Assembly (NCBI GenBank): GCA_024278215.1
Contig: JAJRTR010000064.1
Location: 1-60,133, forward strand
Direction: 5' to 3'
DNA: 60,133 nucleotides
Origin: a bacterium
Lineage (GTDB): Bacteria; UBP15; UBA6099; JAJRTR01
Below are positions 8,651-55,751 of the stretch, one piece after another. Numbering within the stretch: position 1 is the stretch's first letter; every line of letters starts with the position of its first letter. A program made the position numbers and the translations under genes. The notes below the pieces were generated by a model, which saw only the letters and a list, made by a program, of their open reading frames with translations, did not search any database and was not told the DNA's origin.

Positions 8651-8681
8651 GTTAACCCGGATTTCTCACCAGGAAATCCGG
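8651..8681 (-). repeat. Family C hairpin repeat
   Basis: Read on the minus strand: CCGGATTTCCTGGTGAGAAA followed by TCCGGGTTAAC, a stem-loop shared with copies at 8809, 13470, 14543, 37395 and 49993. It lies in the gap between wecB and mreB, with no T-run. Confidence 0.6.
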
Positions 8682-8765
8682 AAAATCGCGATAACGCCTA
8701 TTATACTGCGTTGCAGCGGCGATTCGGGATCGGTCACATACTAACAGTATGCTCCCTCACCACTC

Positions 8766-8838
8766 ACTTGCCACGCCTTGTATTATAAGGCATTCTCCCG
8801 ATTTCTGGCCCGCATTGGTGAAATATGCGGGTTAAGTG
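8766..8838. repeat. Composite short repeats: CTTGCC-CGCC motif plus family C hairpin
   Basis: CTTGCCACGCCTTGTATTAT (8766-8785) recurs as CTTGCCGCGCCTTGTATTAT at 13241. GCATTCTCCCGATTT recurs at 13453. The hairpin CCCGCATTGGTGAAATATGC... (8809-8835) recurs almost exactly at 49993. The same pieces occur in the same order at both 8.7 kb and 13.2-13.5 kb, so this is an interspersed mosaic repeat. Confidence 0.6.
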
Positions 8839-11160: not shown

Positions 11161-11241
11161 TTAAAATAGTCCGGTCCACGATCCACTGAAGCATATTTTA
11201 CATAATCACGACGCTAATGTCATGCGCGCCCGTAATTTATT

Positions 11242-11419
11242 GAGCCAATTGCAAAATTCTGATTCGGCTGCAGTCGGCTGCTATTGTCAATAGTTGCGTT
11301 GTCGGCACAAAATCTTCCTCGACGTACTCTGCAAGTACGCCTGTGGGGATTTCGCACCTCCGCCTTGCTCTGAACAATTTCGCTCGACCTCGCTTCGAAT
11401 ATAATTTTGCAACTGACTC
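11242..11419. repeat. Family A 178-bp repeat with terminal inverted repeats, full copy
   Basis: The left end GAGCCAATTGCAAAATTCTG and right end ATAATTTTGCAACTGACTC are inverted relative to each other (about 18 bp, imperfect). The core includes AAAATCTTCCTCGACGTACT and CCTCCGCCTTGCTC, shared with 51156-51331 and, inverted, with 55502-55679. The copies are the same length (178, 176, 178 bp). No coding capacity is visible, so it resembles a MITE-like non-autonomous element. Confidence 0.75.
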
Positions 11420-11487
11420 TATTATATGTAACGGTTTTATTCAATACATAATTTCGGCGCAAAGATTGCCGCGGCACAACGAGCAGG

Positions 11488-13216: not shown

Positions 13217-13387
13217 GGGAAGATTATTTGTTTCCTTTCACTTGCCGCGCCTTGTATTATAGTATCCTACGACTGAAATGCTACGCAGGATGGTAAAGAA
13301 ATGCTGAAAAGAGATCGGTGAAAGCTGGAGCTACCAGTTACAGGCGTTTCCAGGGTAGACCTTTGGGACGATGAAACTCTGTGTGCC

Positions 13388-13424
13388 GTGCTCAAACCGC
13401 ATTTGTTTGGGCACGAAAATGCGG
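13388..13424 (+). other. Structured RNA segment with two overlapping stems upstream of pta
   Basis: Stem 1: GTGCTCAAAC (13388-13397) with GTTTGGGCAC (13405-13414), 10 bp with one G-U. Its 7-nt loop plus one base, CCGCATTT (13397-13404), is perfectly complementary to AAATGCGG (13417-13424). The stems are either mutually exclusive or a tight pseudoknot. The segment lies 103 bp before the pta ATG. Confidence 0.4.
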
Positions 13425-13469
13425 CCTGTTTGGTTCCGGCTTTGCCGGGTTAGGCCTTCTCCCGATTTT

Positions 13470-13500
13470 CCGGATTTCTTTGTGAGAAATCCGGGCTGAA
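13470..13500 (+). repeat. Family C hairpin repeat
   Basis: The hairpin arms GGATTTCT and AGAAATCC are separated by TTGTG and followed by GGGCTGAAG. It is nearly identical to 14543-14568 and to the minus-strand copy at 8651-8681, and lies 27 bp before the pta start. Confidence 0.6.
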
Positions 13501-14531: not shown

Positions 14532-14542
14532 CGGCGGATTCC

Positions 14543-14568
14543 CTGGATTTCTTTGTGATAAATCCGGG
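14543..14568 (+). repeat. Family C hairpin repeat after pta
   Basis: CTGGATTTCTTTGTGATAAA plus TCCGGG forms a short stem-loop directly after the pta stop. It may act as an mRNA 3' end or be a dispersed palindromic repeat. Confidence 0.55.
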
Positions 14569-14709
14569 TCCCCGAACCGAATTTTTCATTGGGCATAGCG
14601 TTTGAAGCCAGTGATTTGTGCTATTATATATGTACGTGGGCGCAAGCCGCGGGTCAGGTGTGTCCGCTTGTGTCAATGGAAATACAATTGGCTCCATAAA
14701 GACAAATTT

Positions 14710-17700
14710 ATGAACAATAACGCTGATTGTAACAATAAATCGTGCATTCCCCGCATTCGATTATTCGGATGTATGTTTTATGTTATTGCGGCGGTGTCGG
14801 CGCTGGTTTTTATTATCGCGGCCACAGCAGCGCCCGCCTTCGCATCGCGCCCGCCGACTCCCGAAGAGATTGAAAAATATACGCAGGACGGTACACTCGC
14901 CGAGCGCGTCGAGTTCATGAAGAACCTCGGCAACTACAGAATGGATAAGCAGCTTGCTGTCCGGAATTATTACAAACTTAAATACAAGTATGACAGGATG
15001 GTGGGGAACCCGGTGCCGCTGCAGGCGCCGCCGCCCGCGTGGAAGGGGATGCCGACGACGGGAACGGTGAAGGTTCTGATCCTTGCGATCGAGTTCGCAG
15101 ATTACGTGCACAACAACGACAAAACCGAGCTCGAGACGGAAATATTCGGCGCGGGCGACCCGGCGGACTATCCCTATGAGAGTCTCACGAATTATTACGA
15201 CAGAGCGTCCTACAGCCAACTGGATATTCAGGGCAATGTGCTGGGCTGGACGGCTTTCCCGGCCAATCGGGATACTTATGGCACGACGACCGCCGACCGG
15301 GAAAGTATGATAATGAGCGCTCTCGACTACTGGGACGGCGTGGGGCACGATTTCACACAGTACGACAACGACGGTGACGGGAAAATCGACTATTTCGCCG
15401 TTATCTGGGCGGGTCCGAATACCGGCTGGAGCAGTTTCTGGTGGTCATATAAAACAAACTGGAATGTAAATCCCACATACACAATCGACGGAAAAACGCT
15501 TGGTACTTATTCGTGGAATTATGAGTCGAAATACGAGGAACCGAACCCGCCGGGCGATTTCAAACCGCGAACGCTGATACACGAGACGGGCCACGCGCTG
15601 GGACTGCCGGATTACTATGATTATGACGTGGACACGGGGCCTGACGGCGGTGTCGGCAACTTCGACATGATGGACGCCAACCACGGCGACCACAACGCTT
15701 TCAGCAAATTCGTGCTCGACTGGATCACGCCCGTCGTTTATGCCGGCGGAACAGGTTCCATATCGTTGCGTGCTTCCGACTCATACCCGGACGCGGCGAT
15801 AATTATGCCGGAACTGCAATCCGGCGAACAGTTCGGCGAGTACTTCATTGTGCAGAACCGCGAGCAGAACGGAAACGACGACGGCATCTATGGTCAGGGC
15901 CTTGCAGTCTGGCATGTCGACGCCCGTCTCAATACCGCCGGAACGGATTACGAATACGACAACTCTTATACCGAACACAAGTTGCTGAGGCTTATGGAGG
16001 CCGACGGGCTCGAGGAGATCGAGGCGAGCGACAGCAGTTCTTATGACGCCGGTGATTTCTACGTCGCGGGCAACGAGTTCAGCTCGACCACCGTACCGAC
16101 AAACGCGCGCTACGACGGGACATCGTCGGGTTTTTCGCTTTACAATCTCTCCGCCGCGAGCACGACGATGACGCTCGACTACAGCTTCGACGATACACCG
16201 CCGGCGGACATCGCGACTGTCAGCGACGGCACGGGTGCGGACATCGACACTGTGGAATCACTCGACACGCTGTCGGCGAACTGGAGTGCTTCGTCCGACG
16301 CCGAGAGCGGCATACAGAAATACTGGTATGCTGTCGGGACGACGGCGGGGTCGGCGGACTTCGTCGACTGGACGGACAACGCGACCGCCACTGCCGTCAC
16401 CCGCGGCGGCCTGTCGCTCGCGGACGGCCAGGCGTATTTTTTCACGGTCAAAGCGCAGAACGGCGCGGGGCTATACAGCAACGCGACGGATTCGGACGGC
16501 CAGACGGTCGACGTTTTCACTGTCGTTTCCGTCACGCAGGTTTCGACGACGACGATAGATGTTAAGTACACAAAAGAAGTGGACTCGAGTCCGACGGCGG
16601 TGGATACGAATAATTACAGTGTGGACGGCGGCGTCGGGAATCCGACCGGCGCTGTGGCGCAGAGCACGGACACTATCCGCCTGACGACAGCCGAAATGGA
16701 CCCGTGCACACCTTATGTGCTGACGATCACCGGCGTGCTCAGCGATGCCGGCGCCGGCCTGTACGCCGGTTCGTCGCCCGCCGATGTCGACACGATGAAC
16801 ACGCTTATCAGCAGCAATGTCGCTACAGATACGACATGGACGCCCGCCGGCGGCCCCTACTGCGTCACTACGGATATAAATGTTTCCAGCGGCAACACAC
16901 TTACGATACAGGCCGGAACAACCGTATATTTCAAACCGGACGTCGGCGTGGACCTGACTGTGTTCGGAGAAATACAGGTGCAGGGGACAAGCGGTTCGCC
17001 TGTCGTTTTCACCTCGGCGAAGGCAACGCCCGCCGCGGGCGACTACGGGAGTATTCAACTGTCGTCTTCGTCGTCCGCCGGTTCGTCCATCTCCGGCCTG
17101 CACGAGTCTTACGCCGAATATGGGATGTATGTGTTCGGAGTAGCGCCGAATATTACAGAAAGCGAATTCTCGAACTGCCTGCAATCGTGTGTGACGCTGG
17201 ACGGCTCGAACGCGGTCGTATGGAAAAACACGTTTTCAGATTGCGGCGCGGGGACAAGTTCATGTGTGACCACCAGGGAAAGCAGTGAGGGGTATATAGT
17301 CGGCAACAACTTCAGCGGCGGCGACAGAGGCGTGAGCGTACGCTCATCATCATATATCATCGCCAATGATTTCGACGCTATGAACACGATAGGGCTTGGA
17401 ATAAGCGCGGGCGGCGGAGCCGCGATCATAAAAGAGAACAACTTCAGGGGGGCCACCTACGGGATATATACCTGGGCGGACGGCACCGACGCCGACGCGA
17501 CGCATAATTACTTCTCGGGCAACACGGTCGACACATTCGCCGACAGCGGTTGCAGTCCGGCCTGTACTATCGACAACAGCTATCCGCTGACGGATATGAT
17601 CGACGAATTTTTCGGAGTTACAGACCTTGTTTTGAAGTTGAGCGCGAGCTACACGGTGGACCTGCCGGAAAGCATCGCCGCGAGCTCCACTCTATACATC

Positions 17701-20700
17701 CAGGTGGACGGCACCGACGACGATACAACTACAATCAATTCTTTCCTGACCAGCGTCACCAGCGACTCGGACCCGGACGGTATTTATGTCGAACTTACCG
17801 AGACCGGCGTAAACACAGGCATCTACAGGGGCACGGCGGTGCTTGCCGCAGCGTCGGACCAGTCGGCGAACGAAATATTCGCTGTGGACGGCGATACTGT
17901 GACAGTCGGCGTTGTCAGAGACGGCGGCGCGACGAGCGATTCCGCTGTCGTCGCTTCCGATCTGACGCAGCCGACCGACATCGCTTATGTATACGACGGC
18001 CCCGGAGCGGACATCACTTGGGCAAGCAGTACGTCGGTATTATCCGCCAACTGGGCCGCCTCGAGCGATCCTGAAACCGGAGTCAGCGCGTATTTCGTGG
18101 CTATCGGCACGACCGCCGGCGCTACCGATGTATTCAACTGGACGAGTGTCGGCACACAAACATCGACTATCGTCGGCGGACTGTCTCTCGCGCAGGGCCA
18201 GACCGATTATGTGAGTGTTAAGGCGCGCAACGGCGCAGGTATGTATTCCAATGTCGCCACGTCCGACGGCCAGACTGTCGACAACACCGCTCCGGGCGAT
18301 ATAGCATCCATAAATGACGGACTGTCGGCGGATATCGATTACTCGTCGTCGACTGTTTCCCTGTCCGCCAACTGGGCCGACGCGGTCGATGCCCAATCCG
18401 GCGTTTCAACATACTGGATCGCTATCGGCACAGCCTCCGGCGCGGTCAATATTCTCCCATGGACGGACACCGGCGCAACCGCTACTTCCACTACTGTCTC
18501 CGGCATTTCAATCACGCACGGCAACACATATTACTTCCAGGCCGCCGCGCGCAACGGCTCGGAGATGTTCGGCAACGCCATAGTGTCCGACGGTGTTCTC
18601 ATCGACACGACGGCACCGACCGATATTGCAACCGTCAACGACGGCGCGGGCGCGGATATCGCATGGTCTACCTCGAGCACGACCGCTTCCGCCAACTGGT
18701 CCGATTCTTCAGACGGAGAATCCGGAGTGGCTTCGTATTATTACGCGATAGGCTCCGCCGCCGGTGCGACGGATGTTGTCGACTGGACGGATAACGGAAC
18801 CGCAACAGACGTCACCCGCGCCGGGCTTGCCCTCTCGGATGGAACTACATATTACTTCTCGGTCAAAGCGCGTAACAATGTAAGTATCGACACGTCCGTC
18901 ACTTCGTCCGACGGCTGGACGGTGGACACGACGCCACCGACGGCTGTCGCAACCGTCAATGATGGCCCGGGCGCTGATGTCGACTGGGGGAACTCGACTT
19001 CAACGATTTCAGCCAACTGGAGCGCGGCGTCCGATCCGCATTCGGGAATCGCAAGGTATTATTACGCTGTCGGCACAATCGCCGGCGCGACGGATGTCGT
19101 CGGCTGGACCGACAACGCGACGGCCACTTCCGTCACACACAGCGGGCTGTCACTCACGGAAGGAAACACATATTACTTCGCGGTTAAGGCCGAAAACGCG
19201 GCCGGCCTCGTTTCATCCGCCGTCGACTCGGACGGACAGACGATAGATGTCTCCGCGCCGACCGCTGTCGCGACTGTCAACGACGGCACAGGTGCGGACA
19301 TCGCGTGGTCGACGGCGACGGCATCGCTTTCCGCGAACTGGTCGGAGGCGGCTGACCCGCAGTCGGGGATACTCGCCTACTGGTACGCTGTCGGCACGAC
19401 CGCCGGCGCGACGGATGTCGTCGACTGGACGGATAACGGCGCGGCCACTTCCGTCACGAAATCCGGACTCGCGCTCACCGAGGGCCAGGCGTATTACTTC
19501 GCTGTGAAAGCACAGAGCGGCTCGCTCGCGTTCAGCAGTGAGACATACTCGAACGGCCAGAAAGTGGACTCGCAGCCGCCCGCCGATGTCGCAAATGTGA
19601 ACGACGGCACTGCCGCAGATATCGATTACGCGACTTCCCCGACACAGCTTTCGGCCAACTGGAGCGGCACGACCGACGATGGAACGGGCGTGGCCGCCTA
19701 CTGGTATGCAATCGGCACGACCGCGGGCGCGACGGACGTTGTCGGCTGGACGGACATCGCTTCGGATACGTCCGTGACCCGCACCGGCCTTACACTGACA
19801 GAGGCGCAGGCGTATTACTTCACAGTGAAAGCCGAAGACGGTGTGGGGTTCGAGTCGACACCTGTGTTTTCCGACGGCCAGACGGTGGACACGACGTTTG
19901 CCACGCAGTCGGACTGGAGCCCCGCGAAGGGTGCGACGATAACGGTGACGACCCCGACTATTACATTCACTACGAGCGAAAACGCATACTGCCGGTGGTC
20001 CGACACAGACCAGGCATACGCGGACATGTCCGGCGACTGCACAGGCGACGGGACAACCAGCCAGTCGTGCGCGGCGTCGGCTCTCCCGCAGGGAAGCGCG
20101 TCCGTTTATATCTCGTGCAGCGACATGGCGGGCAATGAAGACACCGCGGGAACAAACGAAGAAATAAGCTATTTCGTCGACTCGATCCTGCCCGCGCAGA
20201 GCGGCTGGAGCCCGGCGGATGGCGAAACGATTGCCACGACGACTCCGTTAATATCTTTCACAACAGACGAAACCGCCGGCTGCCTGTGGTCCCTCTCCGA
20301 CCAGGCCTACGGTGATATGAACCCGGCGAACACCTGTTCCGCTTCGGCAACTGTTTCGCATTCATGCGCGGTCACGGGCCTTGTCGAAGGTGCGCAGAAT
20401 GTGCACATAGCCTGCGCCGACACGAGCGGCAACGAAGACTCGGCATCAACAAATACCGACCTCGGTTACACCGTCGACATTACACCGCCCGACCAGTTGT
20501 CGTGGGTTCCCGCGAAGAGTTCCACGCTGACGGCGACTTCACAGGACATCGTCGCGACAACCGACGAGCAATCGAATTGCCGCTGGGCGCTCACCGACCT
20601 GGCTTACGGCGATATGGCCGTCGGAAACGCCTGCACAGGCGATGGAACGGCTTCGCATACATGCCCGGCGACCGGCTTCGATCAAGGATTCGAGATTGTG

Positions 20701-23700
20701 TACATCGCGTGCGCCGACGAACACGGCAACGAGGACACAATCGCGACGAACGAGCAGGTCAACTACTTTGTCGATTCCCTGACTCCCGTTCAGAGCAACT
20801 GGAACCCGGCGAAAGGTGCGACGATAACAACGACAATACCGATCATCACATTCGACACCGACGAAAACGCCACCTGCCGCTGGTATATACTGGACGCGGC
20901 CTATGGCTCGATACCGCCCGGCAACACCTGCGACGGCGGCGGGACGTCCGCGCAAAGTTGCGGCACGGGCGGCCTTAGCGAAGGTGCCGCCACGGTTTAT
21001 ATCGCTTGCATCGACGAAGCCGGAAACGCCGACACCGATTCGACAAATCAGGATATTAACTATTTCATCGACATGACCCCCCCGGCGCAGAGCGGCTGGA
21101 ACCCGGCGGACTCCGCGACTATCGCATCCACAACGCAGGCGATATCTTTCACCACCGACGAAAACGGCGCGTGCCGCTGGTCGCTTACCGACCAGGCCTT
21201 CGCCGACATCGACACGGGCAACGCCTGCGCAGGCGCGACATCCACCGCCCACGTATGCACCGCCGCCGGCCTTGTCGAAGGTTCGGAATATATCTTCATT
21301 TCCTGCACCGACGAATACGGCAACGCCGACACTGCGGGCACGAACGACGCTCTGAATTACACAATCGATCTGTCGCCCCCCGTGCAGAGCGGCTGGAGCC
21401 CGGCGACCGGAACATACATTACAACTTCGTCGCAAACGATAACCTTCACAACGGACGAGAACGCCGATTGCCACTGGTCGCTCACCGACCAGGCTTACGC
21501 CGATATGGGCGGCGACTGCGCGGGCGACGGCACCACCGGCCAGTCGTGCGCCGCGACCGGCCTGTCGTCCGGCCCCGAAGTCGTTTATATCGCCTGCGCC
21601 GACACATACGGAAACGAAGACACGGCAGACACAAACAAAGAACTCGCCTACACGGTGGACACAACCGCGCCGTCCGATATTGCGACTGTTTATGACGGCG
21701 ATACTATCGGGGTGGACATCGACACGACAGAATCGGGCGTCGAGCTTTCCGCCAACTGGACGGCATCCGCCGACGCCGAATCAGGTATTGCGAAATACTG
21801 GTATGCTGTCGGAACCACCGCCGGGGCAACCGATCTCGTCGGCTGGACCGACAACGGCGCGAGTACTTCTGTCACAAAAACCGGTCTCGCTCTCGCCGAC
21901 GGGCAGACATACTACTTCACAGTGAAAGCGGAAAACGGCGTCGGCCTGCAATCGACGCCCGCAAACTCGGACGGCCAGACTGTCGATATCCTCGACCTTA
22001 CACCGCCCGCCGATATCGCTTCTGTTTATGACGGACCCGGACCCGGCGCTGACATCGACTTCGCGTCGTCCACAACGCAGCTTTCGGCGACCTGGTCGGA
22101 CTCGACCGACGCCGAATCGGGCATCGCGGGCTACTGGTACTCCATCGGCACGACATCCGGCGCAAGCGACACCGTAGGCTGGACATACGCCGCAACGAGT
22201 GCGACCTCAACCGTTGTAACAGGTCTCACACTCGCGGACGGCGCGACTTATTATGTTTCCGTCAAGGCGCTCAACGGTGTCGGCCTGTTGTCGAATGTCG
22301 CGACATCTGACGGGCTCACAATCGACGCGACACCGCCCGCGGACGTTATTGTCGACGACGGCCCCGGCACCGACATCGACTTCGCGTCGTCCACCACGCA
22401 GCTATCGGCAAACTGGTCGGCCTCGACCGACGCGCAGACCGGTATCTCCGCGTACCTGTTCGCTGTCGGCACTTCCGCGGGCGCAACGGACACCATCGAC
22501 TGGACCGGCAACGGCACCGACACTTCGGCGGTTGTCACGGGCCTGACACTCACGGAAGGAACAACATATTATTTCACTGTGAAGGCGGAAAACGGTGTCG
22601 GTGTGTTCTCGACCGCCGCGAATTCAGACGGCGTCACGATTGACGTTTCGCCGCCCGTGCAGAGTGCGTGGTCGCCCGCGGACGGTTCGACTGTTACAAC
22701 CACTTCGCCATCGATCACTTTCACAACCGACGAAAACGCCACCTGCCGCTGGTCGCTCACAGACCTCGCGTACAGCGATATGAACGCGGGCAACGCCTGC
22801 TCCGCCTCGGAAACAACAAGTCATACTTGCGCCGTGTCCGGGCTGCCGGAAGGCGCGAATACTATATATATTTCCTGCGCCGATTCAATCGGCAACGAGG
22901 ATACTACATCAACGAATGATCAACTGGCATACACTGTCGATACCACTCCGCCCGTGCAGAGCGCATGGTCGCCTGCGGACGGTTCGACAATAATTACCGA
23001 CGCGCCCTCGATAACATTATCGACCGACGAAAACGCGACATGCCGCTGGTCGCTCACAGACCTCGCATACAGCGATATGTCCGCGGGCGACGACTGCGGC
23101 GGCTCCGGCATCACCGCGCACACGTGCGCCGCATCCGGACTCGCCGAAGGCGAGAACTCCATCTATATCGCCTGCGCAGACACGCCGGGCAATGAAGATT
23201 CGATCTCGACCAGTACGCAACTCGACTACACTGTCGACACCACGCCGCCCGCGCGGAGCGGCTGGAGCCCGGCGACGGGAACTTACATCACAACCACATC
23301 GCCGACGATAACATTCACTACTGACGAGGCCGCCACCTGCCGCTGGTCGCTCTCCGACCTGGCTTACGGCGGCATGTCCGGCGACTGCACGGGCGACGGC
23401 ACAACAAGCCAGTCGTGCGCCGCGACCGGCCTGTCGTCCGGCCCCGAAGTCGTTTATATCGCCTGCGCAGACACGCCCGGAAACGAGGACACGGCGGCCA
23501 CAAACGACGGCCTCGCCTACACGGTGGACACAACCGCGCCGTCCGACATTGCGACCGTATACGATGGCGATACTATCGGGGTGGACATCGACACGACGGA
23601 ATCGGGCGTCGAGCTTTCCGCCAACTGGACGGCCTCGACCGACACCGAATCGGGAATCGCGAAGTACTGGTACGCTGTCGGAACCACCGCGGGCGGAACG

Positions 23701-25350
23701 GACCTCGTAGACTGGACGGACAACGGCGCGAACACTTCTGTCACAAAAACCGGCCTCGCACTCGCCAACGAACAGACGTATTATTTCACGGTAAAGGCGG
23801 AAAACGCCGCCGGTCTGCAATCGACGCCCGTAAACTCGGACGGCCAGCAGGTCGATATACAGGACACGACCGCGCCGACGGATGTCGCATGGGTTTATGA
23901 CGGAACCGGTGCGGACATAGATTATTCGAGTTCGACCGCCATGCTTTCCGCCAACTGGGCGCCCGCCGCCGACTCCGAATCCGGCATCGCGGGCTACTGG
24001 TACTCCATCGGCACGACGTCCGGCGCGAGCGACACCGTAGGCTGGACTTACACCGGGACGAGCGCGACATCATCGTCAATAACCGGTCTCGCACTCGCCG
24101 ATGCGCAGACTTATTACATTTCTATCAAAGCACAGAACGGCGTAGGGCTTGTGTCCGCGGGCACAGGAATGTCGGACGGCGTGACGATCGACACCACGCC
24201 GCCGTCGCAGATCACGAATGTGAACGACGGAGCCGGCGCCGACGTGGAATATTCATCCGAAGAATCAACGCTGTCCGGCAACTGGGACGCGGCGTCCGAT
24301 GCGCAATCGGGCATATCGAGATACATATACGCCATCGGCACAGCAGCAGGCGCGACAGATACTGTCGGATGGACGGACAACGGCACAAATACTTCATTCA
24401 CCAAAACCGGCCTCACCCTCGAGGACGGACAGGTTTATTACATTTCCGTAAAAGCGGAAAACGGACTCGGGCTCGAATCCACTCCCGCAAACTCCGACGG
24501 AGCGATGAAAGATTCGTCGCCCCCGAACGATGTGACGCAGGTAAACGACGGCACCGGCACAGACATCGACACAATAGAATCGACATCCGAACTTTCCGCC
24601 AACTGGTCGGCGGCAACAGACCCCCACAGCGGCATAGCGACTTATTACTATGCGATCGGAACAGGCACGACGATGAATAATATTGTCGATTGGACAGATG
24701 CGGGCGCGACAACTTCCGTCACGGTTTACGGTCTTGGCCTTATGGATGGAGAGACTTATTATTTTTATATCAGGGCGGTAAACAGCGCCGGTCTCGAATC
24801 CGAACCATTCTCCTCCGATGGAGTGACTGTCGACGTGCCGGATACCGGATTCCAACTCGGCACGGGCTGGAACCTGATGGGTATTTCTTTGCAGAATGTT
24901 ACAATAGACCTCGATGAAATGGCGTCCGGCGCGAGCGGAACGGTCGAATTCGAAGTCGCGGCAATCAGCGGCAGCGCTGTGAGCTACATTACGGACCAGT
25001 CGAGTTTCAGCGCTTCCTTCACCGGCGGCTACTGGATATTCAGCGACACGGCGCTCGAATACAGCAGCATCAGCGGCGACACGTACACAGGAGCGAGCTA
25101 CGACATCAGTCTTACCGGCGGCTGGAACACCTTCTCGAACCCCTACGATCAAGCACTCGAGTGGTCGGACACTGGCGCGGCACTCGACTGCGGTGCCCCG
25201 GCATCGTTGCCGCCCATTTACGCCTACGACAACGGTACCGGTTCTTATATTAAGGTCGAACCCGGCTCCGGCACGCGCATCTCACCCTGGAAGGCCTACT
25301 GGATCGAAGTCGATTCTTCCTGCACCCTGACAATAAGCAATCCACAATAA
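14710..25350 (+). CDS. Giant secreted M6-family metalloprotease with 23 adhesive-type repeats
   Basis: About 3,546 aa from the ATG at 14710 (MNNNADCNN); the frame runs 36 codons further upstream but without a signal-like start. A membrane/signal segment (FYVIAAVSALVFIIAATAAPAFA) precedes an immune-inhibitor-A-type M6 domain with zinc motif HETGHALGLPD at residues ~291-301 and FDMMDANHGDHNAFSK downstream. Then: fibronectin-like repeat A1, an Ig-like segment, a right-handed beta-helix-like region (~17.0-17.6 kb), repeats A2-A7, six cysteine-bearing Ig-like repeats B1-B6 (four Cys each, xCRWSLTDQAY), A8-A10, B7-B9, A11-A14, and a C-terminal GWNLMGI/GWNTFSNPY domain (~24.85-25.35 kb). It is likely surface-bound or released and acts on external protein or carbohydrate-rich matrix. 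There is no neighbouring inhibitor or transporter. Confidence 0.88.
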   Translation: MNNNADCNNKSCIPRIRLFGCMFYVIAAVSALVFIIAATAAPAFASRPPTPEEIEKYTQDGTLAERVEFMKNLGNYRMDKQLAVRNYYKLKYKYDRMVGNPVPLQAPPPAWKGMPTTGTVKVLILAIEFADYVHNNDKTELETEIFGAGDPADYPYESLTNYYDRASYSQLDIQGNVLGWTAFPANRDTYGTTTADRESMIMSALDYWDGVGHDFTQYDNDGDGKIDYFAVIWAGPNTGWSSFWWSYKTNWNVNPTYTIDGKTLGTYSWNYESKYEEPNPPGDFKPRTLIHETGHALGLPDYYDYDVDTGPDGGVGNFDMMDANHGDHNAFSKFVLDWITPVVYAGGTGSISLRASDSYPDAAIIMPELQSGEQFGEYFIVQNREQNGNDDGIYGQGLAVWHVDARLNTAGTDYEYDNSYTEHKLLRLMEADGLEEIEASDSSSYDAGDFYVAGNEFSSTTVPTNARYDGTSSGFSLYNLSAASTTMTLDYSFDDTPPADIATVSDGTGADIDTVESLDTLSANWSASSDAESGIQKYWYAVGTTAGSADFVDWTDNATATAVTRGGLSLADGQAYFFTVKAQNGAGLYSNATDSDGQTVDVFTVVSVTQVSTTTIDVKYTKEVDSSPTAVDTNNYSVDGGVGNPTGAVAQSTDTIRLTTAEMDPCTPYVLTITGVLSDAGAGLYAGSSPADVDTMNTLISSNVATDTTWTPAGGPYCVTTDINVSSGNTLTIQAGTTVYFKPDVGVDLTVFGEIQVQGTSGSPVVFTSAKATPAAGDYGSIQLSSSSSAGSSISGLHESYAEYGMYVFGVAPNITESEFSNCLQSCVTLDGSNAVVWKNTFSDCGAGTSSCVTTRESSEGYIVGNNFSGGDRGVSVRSSSYIIANDFDAMNTIGLGISAGGGAAIIKENNFRGATYGIYTWADGTDADATHNYFSGNTVDTFADSGCSPACTIDNSYPLTDMIDEFFGVTDLVLKLSASYTVDLPESIAASSTLYIQVDGTDDDTTTINSFLTSVTSDSDPDGIYVELTETGVNTGIYRGTAVLAAASDQSANEIFAVDGDTVTVGVVRDGGATSDSAVVASDLTQPTDIAYVYDGPGADITWASSTSVLSANWAASSDPETGVSAYFVAIGTTAGATDVFNWTSVGTQTSTIVGGLSLAQGQTDYVSVKARNGAGMYSNVATSDGQTVDNTAPGDIASINDGLSADIDYSSSTVSLSANWADAVDAQSGVSTYWIAIGTASGAVNILPWTDTGATATSTTVSGISITHGNTYYFQAAARNGSEMFGNAIVSDGVLIDTTAPTDIATVNDGAGADIAWSTSSTTASANWSDSSDGESGVASYYYAIGSAAGATDVVDWTDNGTATDVTRAGLALSDGTTYYFSVKARNNVSIDTSVTSSDGWTVDTTPPTAVATVNDGPGADVDWGNSTSTISANWSAASDPHSGIARYYYAVGTIAGATDVVGWTDNATATSVTHSGLSLTEGNTYYFAVKAENAAGLVSSAVDSDGQTIDVSAPTAVATVNDGTGADIAWSTATASLSANWSEAADPQSGILAYWYAVGTTAGATDVVDWTDNGAATSVTKSGLALTEGQAYYFAVKAQSGSLAFSSETYSNGQKVDSQPPADVANVNDGTAADIDYATSPTQLSANWSGTTDDGTGVAAYWYAIGTTAGATDVVGWTDIASDTSVTRTGLTLTEAQAYYFTVKAEDGVGFESTPVFSDGQTVDTTFATQSDWSPAKGATITVTTPTITFTTSENAYCRWSDTDQAYADMSGDCTGDGTTSQSCAASALPQGSASVYISCSDMAGNEDTAGTNEEISYFVDSILPAQSGWSPADGETIATTTPLISFTTDETAGCLWSLSDQAYGDMNPANTCSASATVSHSCAVTGLVEGAQNVHIACADTSGNEDSASTNTDLGYTVDITPPDQLSWVPAKSSTLTATSQDIVATTDEQSNCRWALTDLAYGDMAVGNACTGDGTASHTCPATGFDQGFEIVYIACADEHGNEDTIATNEQVNYFVDSLTPVQSNWNPAKGATITTTIPIITFDTDENATCRWYILDAAYGSIPPGNTCDGGGTSAQSCGTGGLSEGAATVYIACIDEAGNADTDSTNQDINYFIDMTPPAQSGWNPADSATIASTTQAISFTTDENGACRWSLTDQAFADIDTGNACAGATSTAHVCTAAGLVEGSEYIFISCTDEYGNADTAGTNDALNYTIDLSPPVQSGWSPATGTYITTSSQTITFTTDENADCHWSLTDQAYADMGGDCAGDGTTGQSCAATGLSSGPEVVYIACADTYGNEDTADTNKELAYTVDTTAPSDIATVYDGDTIGVDIDTTESGVELSANWTASADAESGIAKYWYAVGTTAGATDLVGWTDNGASTSVTKTGLALADGQTYYFTVKAENGVGLQSTPANSDGQTVDILDLTPPADIASVYDGPGPGADIDFASSTTQLSATWSDSTDAESGIAGYWYSIGTTSGASDTVGWTYAATSATSTVVTGLTLADGATYYVSVKALNGVGLLSNVATSDGLTIDATPPADVIVDDGPGTDIDFASSTTQLSANWSASTDAQTGISAYLFAVGTSAGATDTIDWTGNGTDTSAVVTGLTLTEGTTYYFTVKAENGVGVFSTAANSDGVTIDVSPPVQSAWSPADGSTVTTTSPSITFTTDENATCRWSLTDLAYSDMNAGNACSASETTSHTCAVSGLPEGANTIYISCADSIGNEDTTSTNDQLAYTVDTTPPVQSAWSPADGSTIITDAPSITLSTDENATCRWSLTDLAYSDMSAGDDCGGSGITAHTCAASGLAEGENSIYIACADTPGNEDSISTSTQLDYTVDTTPPARSGWSPATGTYITTTSPTITFTTDEAATCRWSLSDLAYGGMSGDCTGDGTTSQSCAATGLSSGPEVVYIACADTPGNEDTAATNDGLAYTVDTTAPSDIATVYDGDTIGVDIDTTESGVELSANWTASTDTESGIAKYWYAVGTTAGGTDLVDWTDNGANTSVTKTGLALANEQTYYFTVKAENAAGLQSTPVNSDGQQVDIQDTTAPTDVAWVYDGTGADIDYSSSTAMLSANWAPAADSESGIAGYWYSIGTTSGASDTVGWTYTGTSATSSSITGLALADAQTYYISIKAQNGVGLVSAGTGMSDGVTIDTTPPSQITNVNDGAGADVEYSSEESTLSGNWDAASDAQSGISRYIYAIGTAAGATDTVGWTDNGTNTSFTKTGLTLEDGQVYYISVKAENGLGLESTPANSDGAMKDSSPPNDVTQVNDGTGTDIDTIESTSELSANWSAATDPHSGIATYYYAIGTGTTMNNIVDWTDAGATTSVTVYGLGLMDGETYYFYIRAVNSAGLESEPFSSDGVTVDVPDTGFQLGTGWNLMGISLQNVTIDLDEMASGASGTVEFEVAAISGSAVSYITDQSSFSASFTGGYWIFSDTALEYSSISGDTYTGASYDISLTGGWNTFSNPYDQALEWSDTGAALDCGAPASLPPIYAYDNGTGSYIKVEPGSGTRISPWKAYWIEVDSSCTLTISNPQ
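16195..24840 (+). repeat. Tandem protein-domain repeats in the M6 protease (14 type A, 9 type B)
   Basis: Type A repeats (~105 aa) follow the pattern DIATVNDGTGADID, LSANWS, YYYAIGTTAGATDVVDWTD, TYYFSVKAQNG, SDGQTVD. Type B (~98 aa) follow PPVQSGWSPADG, FTTDENATCRWSLTDLAY, CAASGL, YIACADTPGNED. Order: A1, other domains, A2-A7, B1-B6, A8-A10, B7-B9, A11-A14. The block B6-A8-A9 (21370-22310) and B9-A11-A12 (23250-24180) are close copies about 1.87 kb apart at nucleotide level. Confidence 0.85.
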
Positions 25351-25380
25351 ACACAATTTCATTGCCGCGCCCTGCACTTT

Positions 25381-25453
25381 TTCTGTTCCTTCCAGTGAAT
25401 TATTTTCTATTGATCAAAATTATAAGGTGCGGCGGGGTATGGTGACCCCGCCC
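25381..25453 (+). repeat. Family B fragment with GC-rich hairpin, possible terminator of the protease gene
   Basis: TTCTGTTCCTTCCAGTGAAT plus TATTTTCT is shared with 47089 and, inverted, 53943. It is followed by hairpin GGCGGGGT (25431) / ACCCCGCC (25445-25452) with loop ATGGTG. The same arm-and-loop design (loop ACGGTG) occurs in the full family B copies. There is no clear T-run, so termination is only possible. Confidence 0.55.
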
Positions 25454-25543
25454 TTCTTCCGCCGAATTTATTGCGTATGCGTCCCTCTTCTCTCTTTTAA
25501 CTATCTGAAGATTAGTGTCAATCAGGAAAATATTTACAGAATC

Positions 25544-46856: not shown

Positions 46857-46953
46857 TAACAAACTGACTTGACGCTTTTAACATACGAGCCAATTGCAAA
46901 ATTATCGCGGTTATCAACAGGAATTGCGTGTGTGAAATCGTGAAACAACATGG

Positions 46954-47131
46954 TGTCGTGTCAACTTTGTATCGACGTTTTGAGTGGGCGCGGTCACCGT
47001 ACCGCGCCTGAGCATATATTACGCATAACTGTTTGTACGACCAAAAGTTGAGGCGCGGTACGGTGACCGCGCCCTTGTTCTGTTCCTTCCACTAAATTAT
47101 TTTCTTACATCTTTTCATCATTGACACGACA
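46954..47131. repeat. Family B 178-bp repeat with double GC-rich hairpin
   Basis: The ends are TGTCGTGTCAA (46954-46964) and TTGACACGACA (47121-47131), perfect 11-bp inverted repeats. Inside are two arms that each fold (GGCGCGGT...ACCGCGCC, 46987-47008 and 47052-47073) and are also reverse complements of each other, so they can make one long cruciform. An inverted copy is at 53915-54090, with a degenerate copy at 51375-51561 and a fragment at 25381. It is non-coding. Confidence 0.75.
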
Positions 47132-47254
47132 ATTTGGAATTTCAGTCATACGATACCCAAAAAATGTTTTGAGCACAGTACCTGTAGTAATGAGTACACC
47201 TAAGTATAGGTGCCGTCATCTGCATGTACTATTATCATACCAAAATATATGGAC

Positions 47255-49830: not shown

Positions 49831-49978
49831 ATAAATACTTAACGACTGAACGGAAACCTGCTCCTGTCGAAATATGCGTAAGGAAGGTATTCCCTGTAAT
49901 CAACAGCATCAAGTAAAGGGTCTGGAAAATAAGCCGCATTTTCGGTTTTAAGTGTCGCGGGTGCAGGCACGTGGGTTT

Positions 49979-51088
49979 CTACTTCTTATTGGCCCGCATT
50001 GGTGAAATATGCGGGTTAGCTCTTTTATAAATGTGGATTATCTTCTGGTAGAGTTTCACGAGAACGACGGTAGTTCTTCCCCATGAAAAATTGTCAAGCA
50101 GATGTTGTTTAAGTCCGGGGTCGGGCTCGGCGTCTTTGCAGTGCAGCACGGCGTCGAATATCGAGGCGATGTCTTCGGGATCGCAGTAGTTGACGCTGTT
50201 GCCGAGATAAGACCATGTCGAGCCGCGGCTGGTGGCGACGATGGGAAGTTCACAGAGTGCGGCGGTTATATAGGCCATGCCGGGCAGTTCGAAGCTGCTC
50301 GGAAGGGCAAAGAATTTTGCCGCTTTATATGCCGATTTCAGCATTGCCTGGTCGAGTTTGTCGATGAATGTTACTTTCTCATGTGCCATGTCTTTGCAGT
50401 GATCGACATATTCCAGGTCGCCGTCCATGGCACCGACGAGCACAAGTGGAATATCGAGGTCACGGGTTATGTCGATCAGCAGGTGCTGGTTCTTGCGGGG
50501 GCTCAACTGCCCGACGCACAGGCAGAATTCGTCGTCGCCGTACTTTTCACGAAACGGCCCGGGTTTGCCTACGCCGAGAAACAGGTCGATGCCGATAGGC
50601 AACTCGACTATGCGGCCCTTCTTTATATCGTAGTCGCGCCTGAGCTGGAGCGATTCGCATTTGCCGGACGATATCACCAGCGCGGCGTTTTCGAGTATGA
50701 ATTTCTGCTGACGCAACCTGTCGGACAGCATTTTTTTCTGATAATAAAATGTGGAAAGTTTTTCTTCTCTTACATCGGGTTTTTCTTTGCCGTTGGCTCT
50801 GTGGAGGCTTGCGAGATCGAAATGGATAGGGAACTCTTCGTTCCAGTACAGAGGAGTTGCAATTACAGGTTTTCCCAGCCTTGCAGCTATCCGGCTGACA
50901 GCGTGTGTGCGGTCTGAGAGTCCGAACAGATGCACGAGATCGTATTTCTTCAAATCCTGTACATCGTCGCCCAGCGTGTCTACCTTGACCCCGCTCTGCT
51001 TGAGATACTTCGCGAAGTACATCATGATATCGTACTCGTCGCGCGTACCGTCACCTTTATAAAATCCGTACTGCAGGCCAACCCTCAT
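49979..51088 (-). CDS. GT4-like glycosyltransferase
   Basis: 369 aa, GT-B fold. VGKPGPFREKYGDDEFCLCVGQLSPRKNQHLLIDI marks the nucleotide-sugar domain; ALPSSFELPGMAYITAALCELPIVATSRGSTWSYLG is the usual E-x7-E-type donor region with a degenerate second half. The N-terminal domain starts with LQYGFYKGDGTRDEYDIMMYFAKYL. The last 13 residues (ANPHISPMRANKK) are encoded by a family C hairpin repeat (49993-50019), so the normal end was probably altered by repeat insertion. It likely adds a sugar to a surface polymer. Confidence 0.82.
   Translation of the reverse strand: MRVGLQYGFYKGDGTRDEYDIMMYFAKYLKQSGVKVDTLGDDVQDLKKYDLVHLFGLSDRTHAVSRIAARLGKPVIATPLYWNEEFPIHFDLASLHRANGKEKPDVREEKLSTFYYQKKMLSDRLRQQKFILENAALVISSGKCESLQLRRDYDIKKGRIVELPIGIDLFLGVGKPGPFREKYGDDEFCLCVGQLSPRKNQHLLIDITRDLDIPLVLVGAMDGDLEYVDHCKDMAHEKVTFIDKLDQAMLKSAYKAAKFFALPSSFELPGMAYITAALCELPIVATSRGSTWSYLGNSVNYCDPEDIASIFDAVLHCKDAEPDPGLKQHLLDNFSWGRTTVVLVKLYQKIIHIYKRANPHISPMRANKK
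49993..50019 (+). repeat. Family C hairpin inside the 3' end of the glycosyltransferase gene
   Basis: CCCGCATTGGTGAAATATGC plus GGGTTAG is almost identical to the intergenic copy at 8809-8835. It is translated on the minus strand as ANPHISPMRAN. Confidence 0.7.
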
Positions 51089-51155
51089 AATACGTTATAC
51101 TCTCCCCCAATAAAACATCATAAGAATAGCAGCATGAATTTCAAACTTCAATAAA

Positions 51156-51331
51156 GAGCCGCCTGTAAAAGTCTGTTCTATTGCGGTCGGTTGCATTTGT
51201 CCGGAGCCTTGTCGTCGCCGCAGAATCTTCCTCAACATACTCACGGGTATGCCTGTGGGGATGTTGCGCCTCCGCCTTGCTCCGATCAATTTCGCTTGCC
51301 CTCACCAAGAATATGCTTTTGCGATCGGCTC
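51156..51331. repeat. Family A repeat, degenerate full-length copy (176 bp)
   Basis: It is collinear with 11242-11419: GAGCC at the left, then CAGAATCTTCCTCAACATAC, GCCTGTGGGGATGTTGCGCC, TCCGCCTTGCTC, and GGCTC at the right. It is diverged by many substitutions but has the same length, so it is an older insertion. Confidence 0.65.
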
Positions 51332-51374
51332 AAAATAGTGCCTGAACGCCCCCCCGAACCCCGATCACAACTGG

Positions 51375-51561
51375 TGACATGTCATACTTGTAAATGCGCA
51401 AAATGTGTAGACAAGGGCGGGGGCACCGCATAAGCCTGAGCATATTTCTCGCGAAAACGGTTTGTACAGGCACAGGTTGAGGCGGGGTACGGTGCCCCCG
51501 CACTACACTTTCATCGTTTTTACGCTAACCCATCTTGCGCCTTTTCTTTATTGACAGGATG
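51375..51561. repeat. Family B repeat, degenerate copy
   Basis: Left end TGACATGTCAT, right end TTGACAGGATG. Internal GC-rich arms (GGCGGGGGCACCGC around 51416-51429 and GGCGGGGTACGGTGCCCCCG at 51481-51500) and GAGCATATTTCTCGCG match 46954-47131. Confidence 0.6.
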
Positions 51562-53640: not shown

Positions 53641-54147
53641 TTATTTATCCGATCTCTTCAGGTGGGTATGTACTTGACTCAACCAGGCCCAACACATAGT
53701 CCTTACTGTGATGGACTATGATAGAAGACTACTATATCTTATATCAGGGTGTTTATGTACATACCCTCATTTAAGATTATTAACAGAACTTTGTGCGTTT
53801 TTGAAACATGTGCAGAATTTCAAGGGGGGACACGAACCGGAATTATAGCATTTATTATTTTGAATTGCATACGTATAGTTACGATTATCATGTACAAGGG
53901 AAAGAACACTTTATTGTCGTATCAACGATGAAAAGACGTAAGAAAATAATTTAGTGGAAGGAACAGAACAAGGGCGCGGTCACCGCAGCGCGCCCCAACT
54001 TTTGGTCGTACAAACAGTTATGCGTAATATATGCACAGGCGCGGTACGGTGACCGCGCCCTCAAAATGTCGATACAAAGTTGACACAACACTATGTTGTT
54101 TCACAATTTCATATAGGAAATTCTGCGCATGTTTCAAAACGCACAAG
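53641..54147. other. Low-GC intergenic region carrying a 363-bp inverted-repeat element
   Basis: From 53787 to 54149 the region is bounded by near-perfect 33-35-bp inverted repeats and encloses a family B element. The left part (53641-53786) has no identifiable feature. Confidence 0.6.
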
Positions 54148-55467: not shown

Positions 55468-55501
55468 GAATACATTCTAACTTAAAAATGAGTTTTTAGT
55501 A

Positions 55502-55679
55502 GAGGCAATTGCAAAATAATGTTCGAAGCGAGGTCGAACGAAATTGATCAAAAGCAAGGCGGATGTGCAAAATTCCCGCAGGCGTACTTATATAGTAGGC
55601 TGAGGAAAATTTTGCGCCGACAACGCAGCTATTGACAATTGCAGCCGACCATAGCCGAATCAGAATTTGCAATCGCCTC
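55502..55679. repeat. Family A 178-bp repeat, full copy in inverted orientation
   Basis: It begins GAGGCAATTGCAAAATAATG and ends CAGAATTTGCAATCGCCTC, the reverse arrangement of 11242-11419 with the same length. It fills most of the 284-bp gap between the VWA and M50 genes; the remainder holds nothing recognised. Confidence 0.75.
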
Positions 55680-55751
55680 ATTAACATACAAATAGAAATT
55701 TTACGCGAAACGGCAAAGGATTAAACACAGATATTTGGAGATACAGAGCAA

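Follow-up and report, generated by a model that had tools for sequence, protein, structure and literature searches.

A REP dimer inside a TIR element: family B, a candidate two-layer mobile repeat in a bacterium of the phylum UBP15

In a bacterium of the phylum UBP15, a 178-nt element with inverted ends and two GC-rich palindromes separates a UPF0164/PorV-like gene from a convergent ADP-ribosylglycohydrolase gene. This raises the question of what kind of repeat the element (family B) is, how it may have spread, and whether it affects the genes beside it. The whole stretch of DNA that was analyzed, 60,133 nt of contig JAJRTR010000064.1, is referred to as the window. Our best explanation, to which we assign a probability of about 0.75, is that family B is a two-layer non-autonomous mobile repeat, in which a REP dimer (REPIN) sits in a TIR element that is itself nested in two other families of repeats, D and E.

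Copies in the window and across the genome

Copy 1 occupies positions 46953 to 47132 of the plus strand (profile match 46946-47134), and its 11-bp inverted ends are TGTCGTGTCAA at 46954-46964 and TTGACACGACA at 47121-47131. The ends enclose the palindrome GGCGCGGTCACCGTACCGCGCC at 46987-47008, which is a minus-strand unit reading GGCGCGGTACGGTGACCGCGCC, and its inverted partner GGCGCGGTACGGTGACCGCGCC at 47052-47073 on the plus strand, 65 bp away. The left part of host repeat E, common to other E copies, adjoins copy 1 at 46905-46952 (plus strand); the right part is absent. Copy 2 is inverted (53914-54091, minus strand; ends at 53915 and 54090), is 95% complementary to copy 1 over 148 nt, and has palindromes at 53973-53994 and 54038-54059, the first of the pair with two mismatches. 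It lies between both halves of E, with the right part at 53850-53913 and the left part at 54092-54123 (both minus strand). Comparison with other copies indicates that copies 1 and 2 have each lost their outer GTAG tags through small deletions, and both look immobile. Copy 3 (∼51370-51560, plus strand) retains a GTAG tag at 51407-51410 and a good palindrome at 51481-51502; its other palindrome, at ∼51416-51437, is decayed. The fourth site, 25366-25477, consists of a right-arm fragment of the TIR element that includes the final bases of a palindrome (25366-25412, plus strand) and of a separate REP palindrome at 25431-25452 (plus strand), and it is not a single simple truncation. The initial annotation had described the inverted ends, the two palindromes and these four sites (46954, 53915 inverted, 51375 decayed and a fragment at 25381), and all are present as placed. 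The window contains six such palindromes with up to four mismatches, as compared to a mean of 0.08 in local shuffles, and relative to shuffles the folding energy of the 178-nt element is lower by 9.4 sd as RNA and by 8.7 sd as DNA.

The window also holds other repetitive sequence. Two more short intergenic repeat families, one with the palindrome CCCGGATTTCTTTGTGAGAAATCCGGG and one with GCATTGGTGAAATATGCGGG, occur at 8651-8700, 13451-13495 and 14537-14568, and also at 8793-8834 and 49977-50018. A 3582-aa open reading frame with repeated units of ∼107 and ∼99 residues spans 14602-25350.

The source genome is a draft metagenome assembly of 4.55 Mb in 207 contigs (95% complete). A search with a 206-bp stretch found the element at no fewer than ∼43 places, in at least 71 matching pieces, and a search with a REP-dimer consensus added places (e.g., on contigs C139, C192 and C84); the counts from both searches are lower bounds. 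An iterative profile search on the first set of loci returned 62 non-overlapping stretches, and the DNA examined contains 102 palindrome units. The proposal that the element is an interspersed repeat is borne out, and additional copies are plentiful. A draft genome in 207 contigs might suggest that a few copies of one locus were multiplied as an assembly or duplication artefact. However, the copies differ from each other by 5-30%, they lie in different gene neighbourhoods, and a looser palindrome pattern matched the genome 66 times and its reversed control not once. So many diverged copies with flanks of their own already refute an artefact, the probability of which we consider negligible.

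Outside this genome, the element had no match in six other genomes of the phylum or in 34 genomes from elsewhere in the domain, and Rfam yielded no family in the window. The exact core palindrome gave single matches in six unrelated organisms among the GTDB genomes and none in viral contigs. An inverted pair on an Opitutia contig (L142), GTAGGGCGGGATCTCCGGATCCCGCC..GGCGGGGTACGGTGACCCCGCCCTAC, was considered and rejected, as it is a REP of like style but a different element.

A head-to-head palindrome pair, its folds and its gene context

The core of family B consists of two palindromes, GTAG-GGCG[C/G]GGTCACCGTACC[G/C]CGCC, arranged head to head. All 35 doublets have the minus unit followed by the plus unit at a start-to-start distance of 63-67 bp, nearly always 65 or 66. 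Of the 102 units, 44 have an exact GTAG no more than 12 nt away on the outer side (directly at the stem in 25 and 5 nt away in 19), and none has one on the inner side. Units without it often carry GCAG or GTAT, or have lost the tag, and about half of all units bear the GTAG/GYRG tag at one end only. The best units read, from the outside inwards, GTAG-GGCGGGGTCACCGTACCCCGCC, or GTAG-ACAAG followed by the stem.

Head-to-head GTAG REP dimers that act as a unit are called REPINs (PMC3733652, PMC2817692, PMC3116915), and published REPs of the same style include GTAGGGTGGGTCTTGACCCACC and GTAGGGcGGGTAAGCGgAGCGCACCCgCC (PMC2817692). Family B resembles them in its short palindromes with many intergenic copies and GTAG on the outer side, its inverted doublets of one orientation with fixed spacing and a conserved spacer, its homodimers and heterodimers, and its complementary stem variants. 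It also matches the head-to-head arrangement and the 3′-end distribution of REP dimers (PMC3733652), lying between convergent or co-directional genes. Unlike the published dimers, that of family B is mostly carried inside a TIR element, about half of its units have a lost or altered tag, no RAYT flanked by its REP was found, and its stem sequence is its own.

The palindromes can pair locally as two hairpins or with each other as one long stem, as the initial annotation stated when it called the structure bistable; nothing, however, shows a regulated switch between the two. Such alternative folding is already a recorded property of REP dimers, which may form either two separate folds or a single large stem-loop (PMC3733652). 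Across 35 copies, 85.4% of cells are paired in the local hairpins and 83.9% in the long stem. At the diagnostic positions, pairing within each hairpin is kept in 30/35 and 31/35 copies (pair 7-20: 15 CG and 15 GC; pair 74-87: 19 GC, 10 CG and 2 GU), as compared to only 24/35 and 21/35 for the long stem. Six of the 24 fully classifiable dimers are heterodimers, in which the hairpins are paired at the diagnostic position and the long stem is broken there. Since the hairpins are better kept at the diagnostic pairs and since heterodimers occur, the hairpin units have the better support as a conserved feature. The long stem is lower in energy in 33 of the 35 copies, by 15 kcal/mol on average, and arises because the units are inverted copies of each other. 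The covariation between arms that had been suggested as a check does exist, and the compensatory C-G/G-C change rests mainly on one stem pair, pair 5 (56 GC and 29 CG of 108). At stem pairs 1-7, G.T and A.C are equally frequent (31 each), and RNA-level selection in the form of a G.U preference was not seen in this test, which is a weak one as the units lie in both orientations.

Gene context was derived from a simple codon-based gene call, which is not a validated gene finder, and two loci that had been listed twice were counted once. Among 26 distinct copies with both neighbours, 14 lie in convergent, 11 in co-directional and one in divergent gaps (convergent versus divergent, p = 0.001), and the copies avoid promoter regions. 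At L005, L008 and L011, the called gene on the left stops no more than 3 bases from the element edge, so the TAG at the element end may serve as a stop codon. An effect on transcript ends, which had been raised in the initial annotation, is at most plausible, given that the copies lie at gene 3′ ends. This location, the strong GC hairpins and one terminator-like site at 47052-47073 could also be read as a host-maintained bidirectional terminator or mRNA 3′-end stabiliser, with the hairpins under selection. That reading is very improbable in our estimation. The terminator scan was at chance level (one found against 0.7 expected), the T-run is weak or several bases from the stem, and the stem changes have no excess of G.T over A.C. 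Moreover, none of the six other genomes of the phylum has the element, many copies are decayed, and promoter avoidance is equally expected for a tolerated mobile repeat.

The TIR element and its host repeats

The carrier of the dimer is a TIR element with the ends GTGTCRTGTCAAC..GTTGACAYGACAC and with arms of several sequence types. A typical copy has 13-bp ends and a flanking TA; solitary ends are common, as are forms with internal deletions. With its GTGTCRTGTCAAC ends, its lack of coding capacity and a full length of ∼160-205 bp, the element has the properties of a MITE (70-300 bp). Among 36 two-ended elements, TA flanks the left end in 26, the right end in 20 and both ends in 12, and the flanks that differ from TA are mostly one transition away (TG, CA). 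RUP and NEMIS/Correia are MITEs of the IS630/Tc1-mariner type, which are small, non-coding and intergenic, with short TIRs and TA flanks. Family B is comparable to them in these general features. In contrast to these MITEs, it carries a REP dimer and is found in an assembly without an IS630-type transposase.

Each of the host families, D (ends CTGAACTTGTGCGTTTTT and AAAAACGCACAAGTTCAG) and E (left end GGTTATCAATAGGAATTGCGTATGTGAAATCGTGAAACAACA, right end TAAAGTGTTCTTTCCTTTGTACATGATAATCGTAACTATACGTATGCAATTC), holds the TIR element at a single fixed position. Unoccupied hosts exist for both. Copies of D without the element are found at about ten places (L155/L089, L156, L160, L165, L170, L171, L172, L174, L175, L181 and L152), and one such copy of E is found at C170:3579. 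At the TA site, occupied E copies have two TAs and the unoccupied E copy a single one; the unoccupied D copies mostly read otherwise. A duplication of TA upon insertion has been demonstrated for ISY100 (PMC2170065). In family B, the TA could instead be the outermost bases of the TIR; element-free D copies read TG or other letters there. L152 belongs by its letters to the occupied D lineage. At the point where occupied copies have TTCTAC-TA-[element]-TA-CCTTTTAT, its sequence is TTCTAC-TA-C-TA-TCTTTTAT, and this single instance could be the footprint of an excision. Nesting goes one level deeper at L070:250-620, where a family B element is split by an unrelated insertion with inverted ends of its own (GTGTGCGACA.AAAAGTGGGTT / AACCCACTTTTATGTCGCACAC).

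Dimers within longer palindromes have been described before, in Anabaena variabilis (GTAG-15) and others (PMC3733652). Family B resembles GTAG-15 in having its GTAG REP dimer enclosed by a longer palindromic repeat. Target palindromes without the REP were not found for GTAG-15 (PMC3733652), whereas the family B carrier sits in two other repeat families with unoccupied copies.

Do the dimer and the TIR element represent two layers or one? The whole ∼180-bp element could be a single MITE with internal palindromes, of which the likeness to REPs is convergent and which no Y1 transposase ever moved. In nearly all full copies the dimer is at a constant place between the arms, and no cognate RAYT was found. 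We examined dimer-less TIR elements as possible empty REP sites and rejected them; they look like deletion derivatives, with differing breakpoints, and L122 keeps a CCTGCAC remnant. Against a single MITE, dimers or single units with GTAG/CTAC edges occur in other contexts. One right-hand context, CTACACYTTTTCCG, is common to L031, L049 and L073, in which one side of the context differs, and another, CTTCYGCCGAATTYATTGCGTATGCG, is common to L038 and the unit at window position 25431. In addition, an outer GTAG tag on an inverted doublet is the defining plan of a REP. Although the independence of the REP and TIR layers rests on a few copies, we regard the single MITE as unlikely and favor a REP dimer within a TIR element.

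Candidate mobilising enzymes and the meaning of family B

On the two-layer reading, the inner layer is a head-to-head GTAG REP dimer. The analogy with REP/RAYT systems suggests that a Y1 (HUH) REP-associated transposase, working on single-stranded hairpins, spread it. The TIR element forms the outer layer and was probably mobilised in trans by an IS630/Tc1-mariner-type DDE transposase with TA target duplication. The TIR element would have taken the dimer to many intergenic sites and, inside D and E, would have been amplified further within larger units. Copies 1 and 2 would then be decayed passengers without REP tags in intergenic DNA adjoining gene 3′ ends, which presumably no longer move, and any effect on neighbouring transcripts would be a side effect of the hairpins.

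The genome encodes six Y1_Tnp genes. None is flanked by the family B REP or TIR (the REP was searched for in 1.5-kb flanks), and their flanks contain no GTAG hairpins. The draft assembly contains no IS630-type DDE_3 domain and no TIR pair enclosing a transposase that could be an autonomous partner, and three DDE_Tnp_1 genes, which are without family B ends, were rejected as mobilisers. Because no Y1, DDE_3 or DDE_Tnp_1 gene matches the REP or TIR, we infer RAYT and IS630-like mobilisation from the anatomy only. Published REP families can be without a RAYT in some genomes, so the lack of a cognate RAYT lowers the claim of mobilisation and not that of the anatomy. The mobilising enzymes may have been lost, may lie in assembly gaps or may be of another type.

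Two other repeats accompany the Y1 genes. A family of ∼190 bp with the ends GAGCCAATTGCAAAATT..AATTTTGCAATTGGCTC adjoins three of the six on their 5′ side (L085:1915-1976, L086:1869-2050 and L090:1900-2009), also occurs in the window at 11235-11420, 51151-51331 and 55497-55683, and may be the repeat that those Y1 enzymes act on. At L088:641-1941, a Y1 gene is flanked on both sides by the repeat GTGTGCCGTGCTCAAACC..TTTGTTTGGGCACG in a REPtron-like arrangement; this repeat recurs elsewhere in the genome, including window positions 13380-13417.

A bolder form of the two-layer reading is that the REP dimer and the TIR element are a co-evolved composite, in which Y1 chemistry on single-stranded hairpins and DDE chemistry on double-stranded ends let the layers spread each other through successive host repeats. 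We give this a slim chance.

Family B itself is new, while its kind, a REP dimer and a TIR mini-transposon, is well known, and it leaves existing knowledge of REPs unchanged. What it adds is the extension of GTAG-type REP dimers to a little-sampled phylum (seven genomes) and a readable stratigraphy, a REP dimer in a TIR element in older repeats with unoccupied hosts, which allows the transposition events to be put in order.
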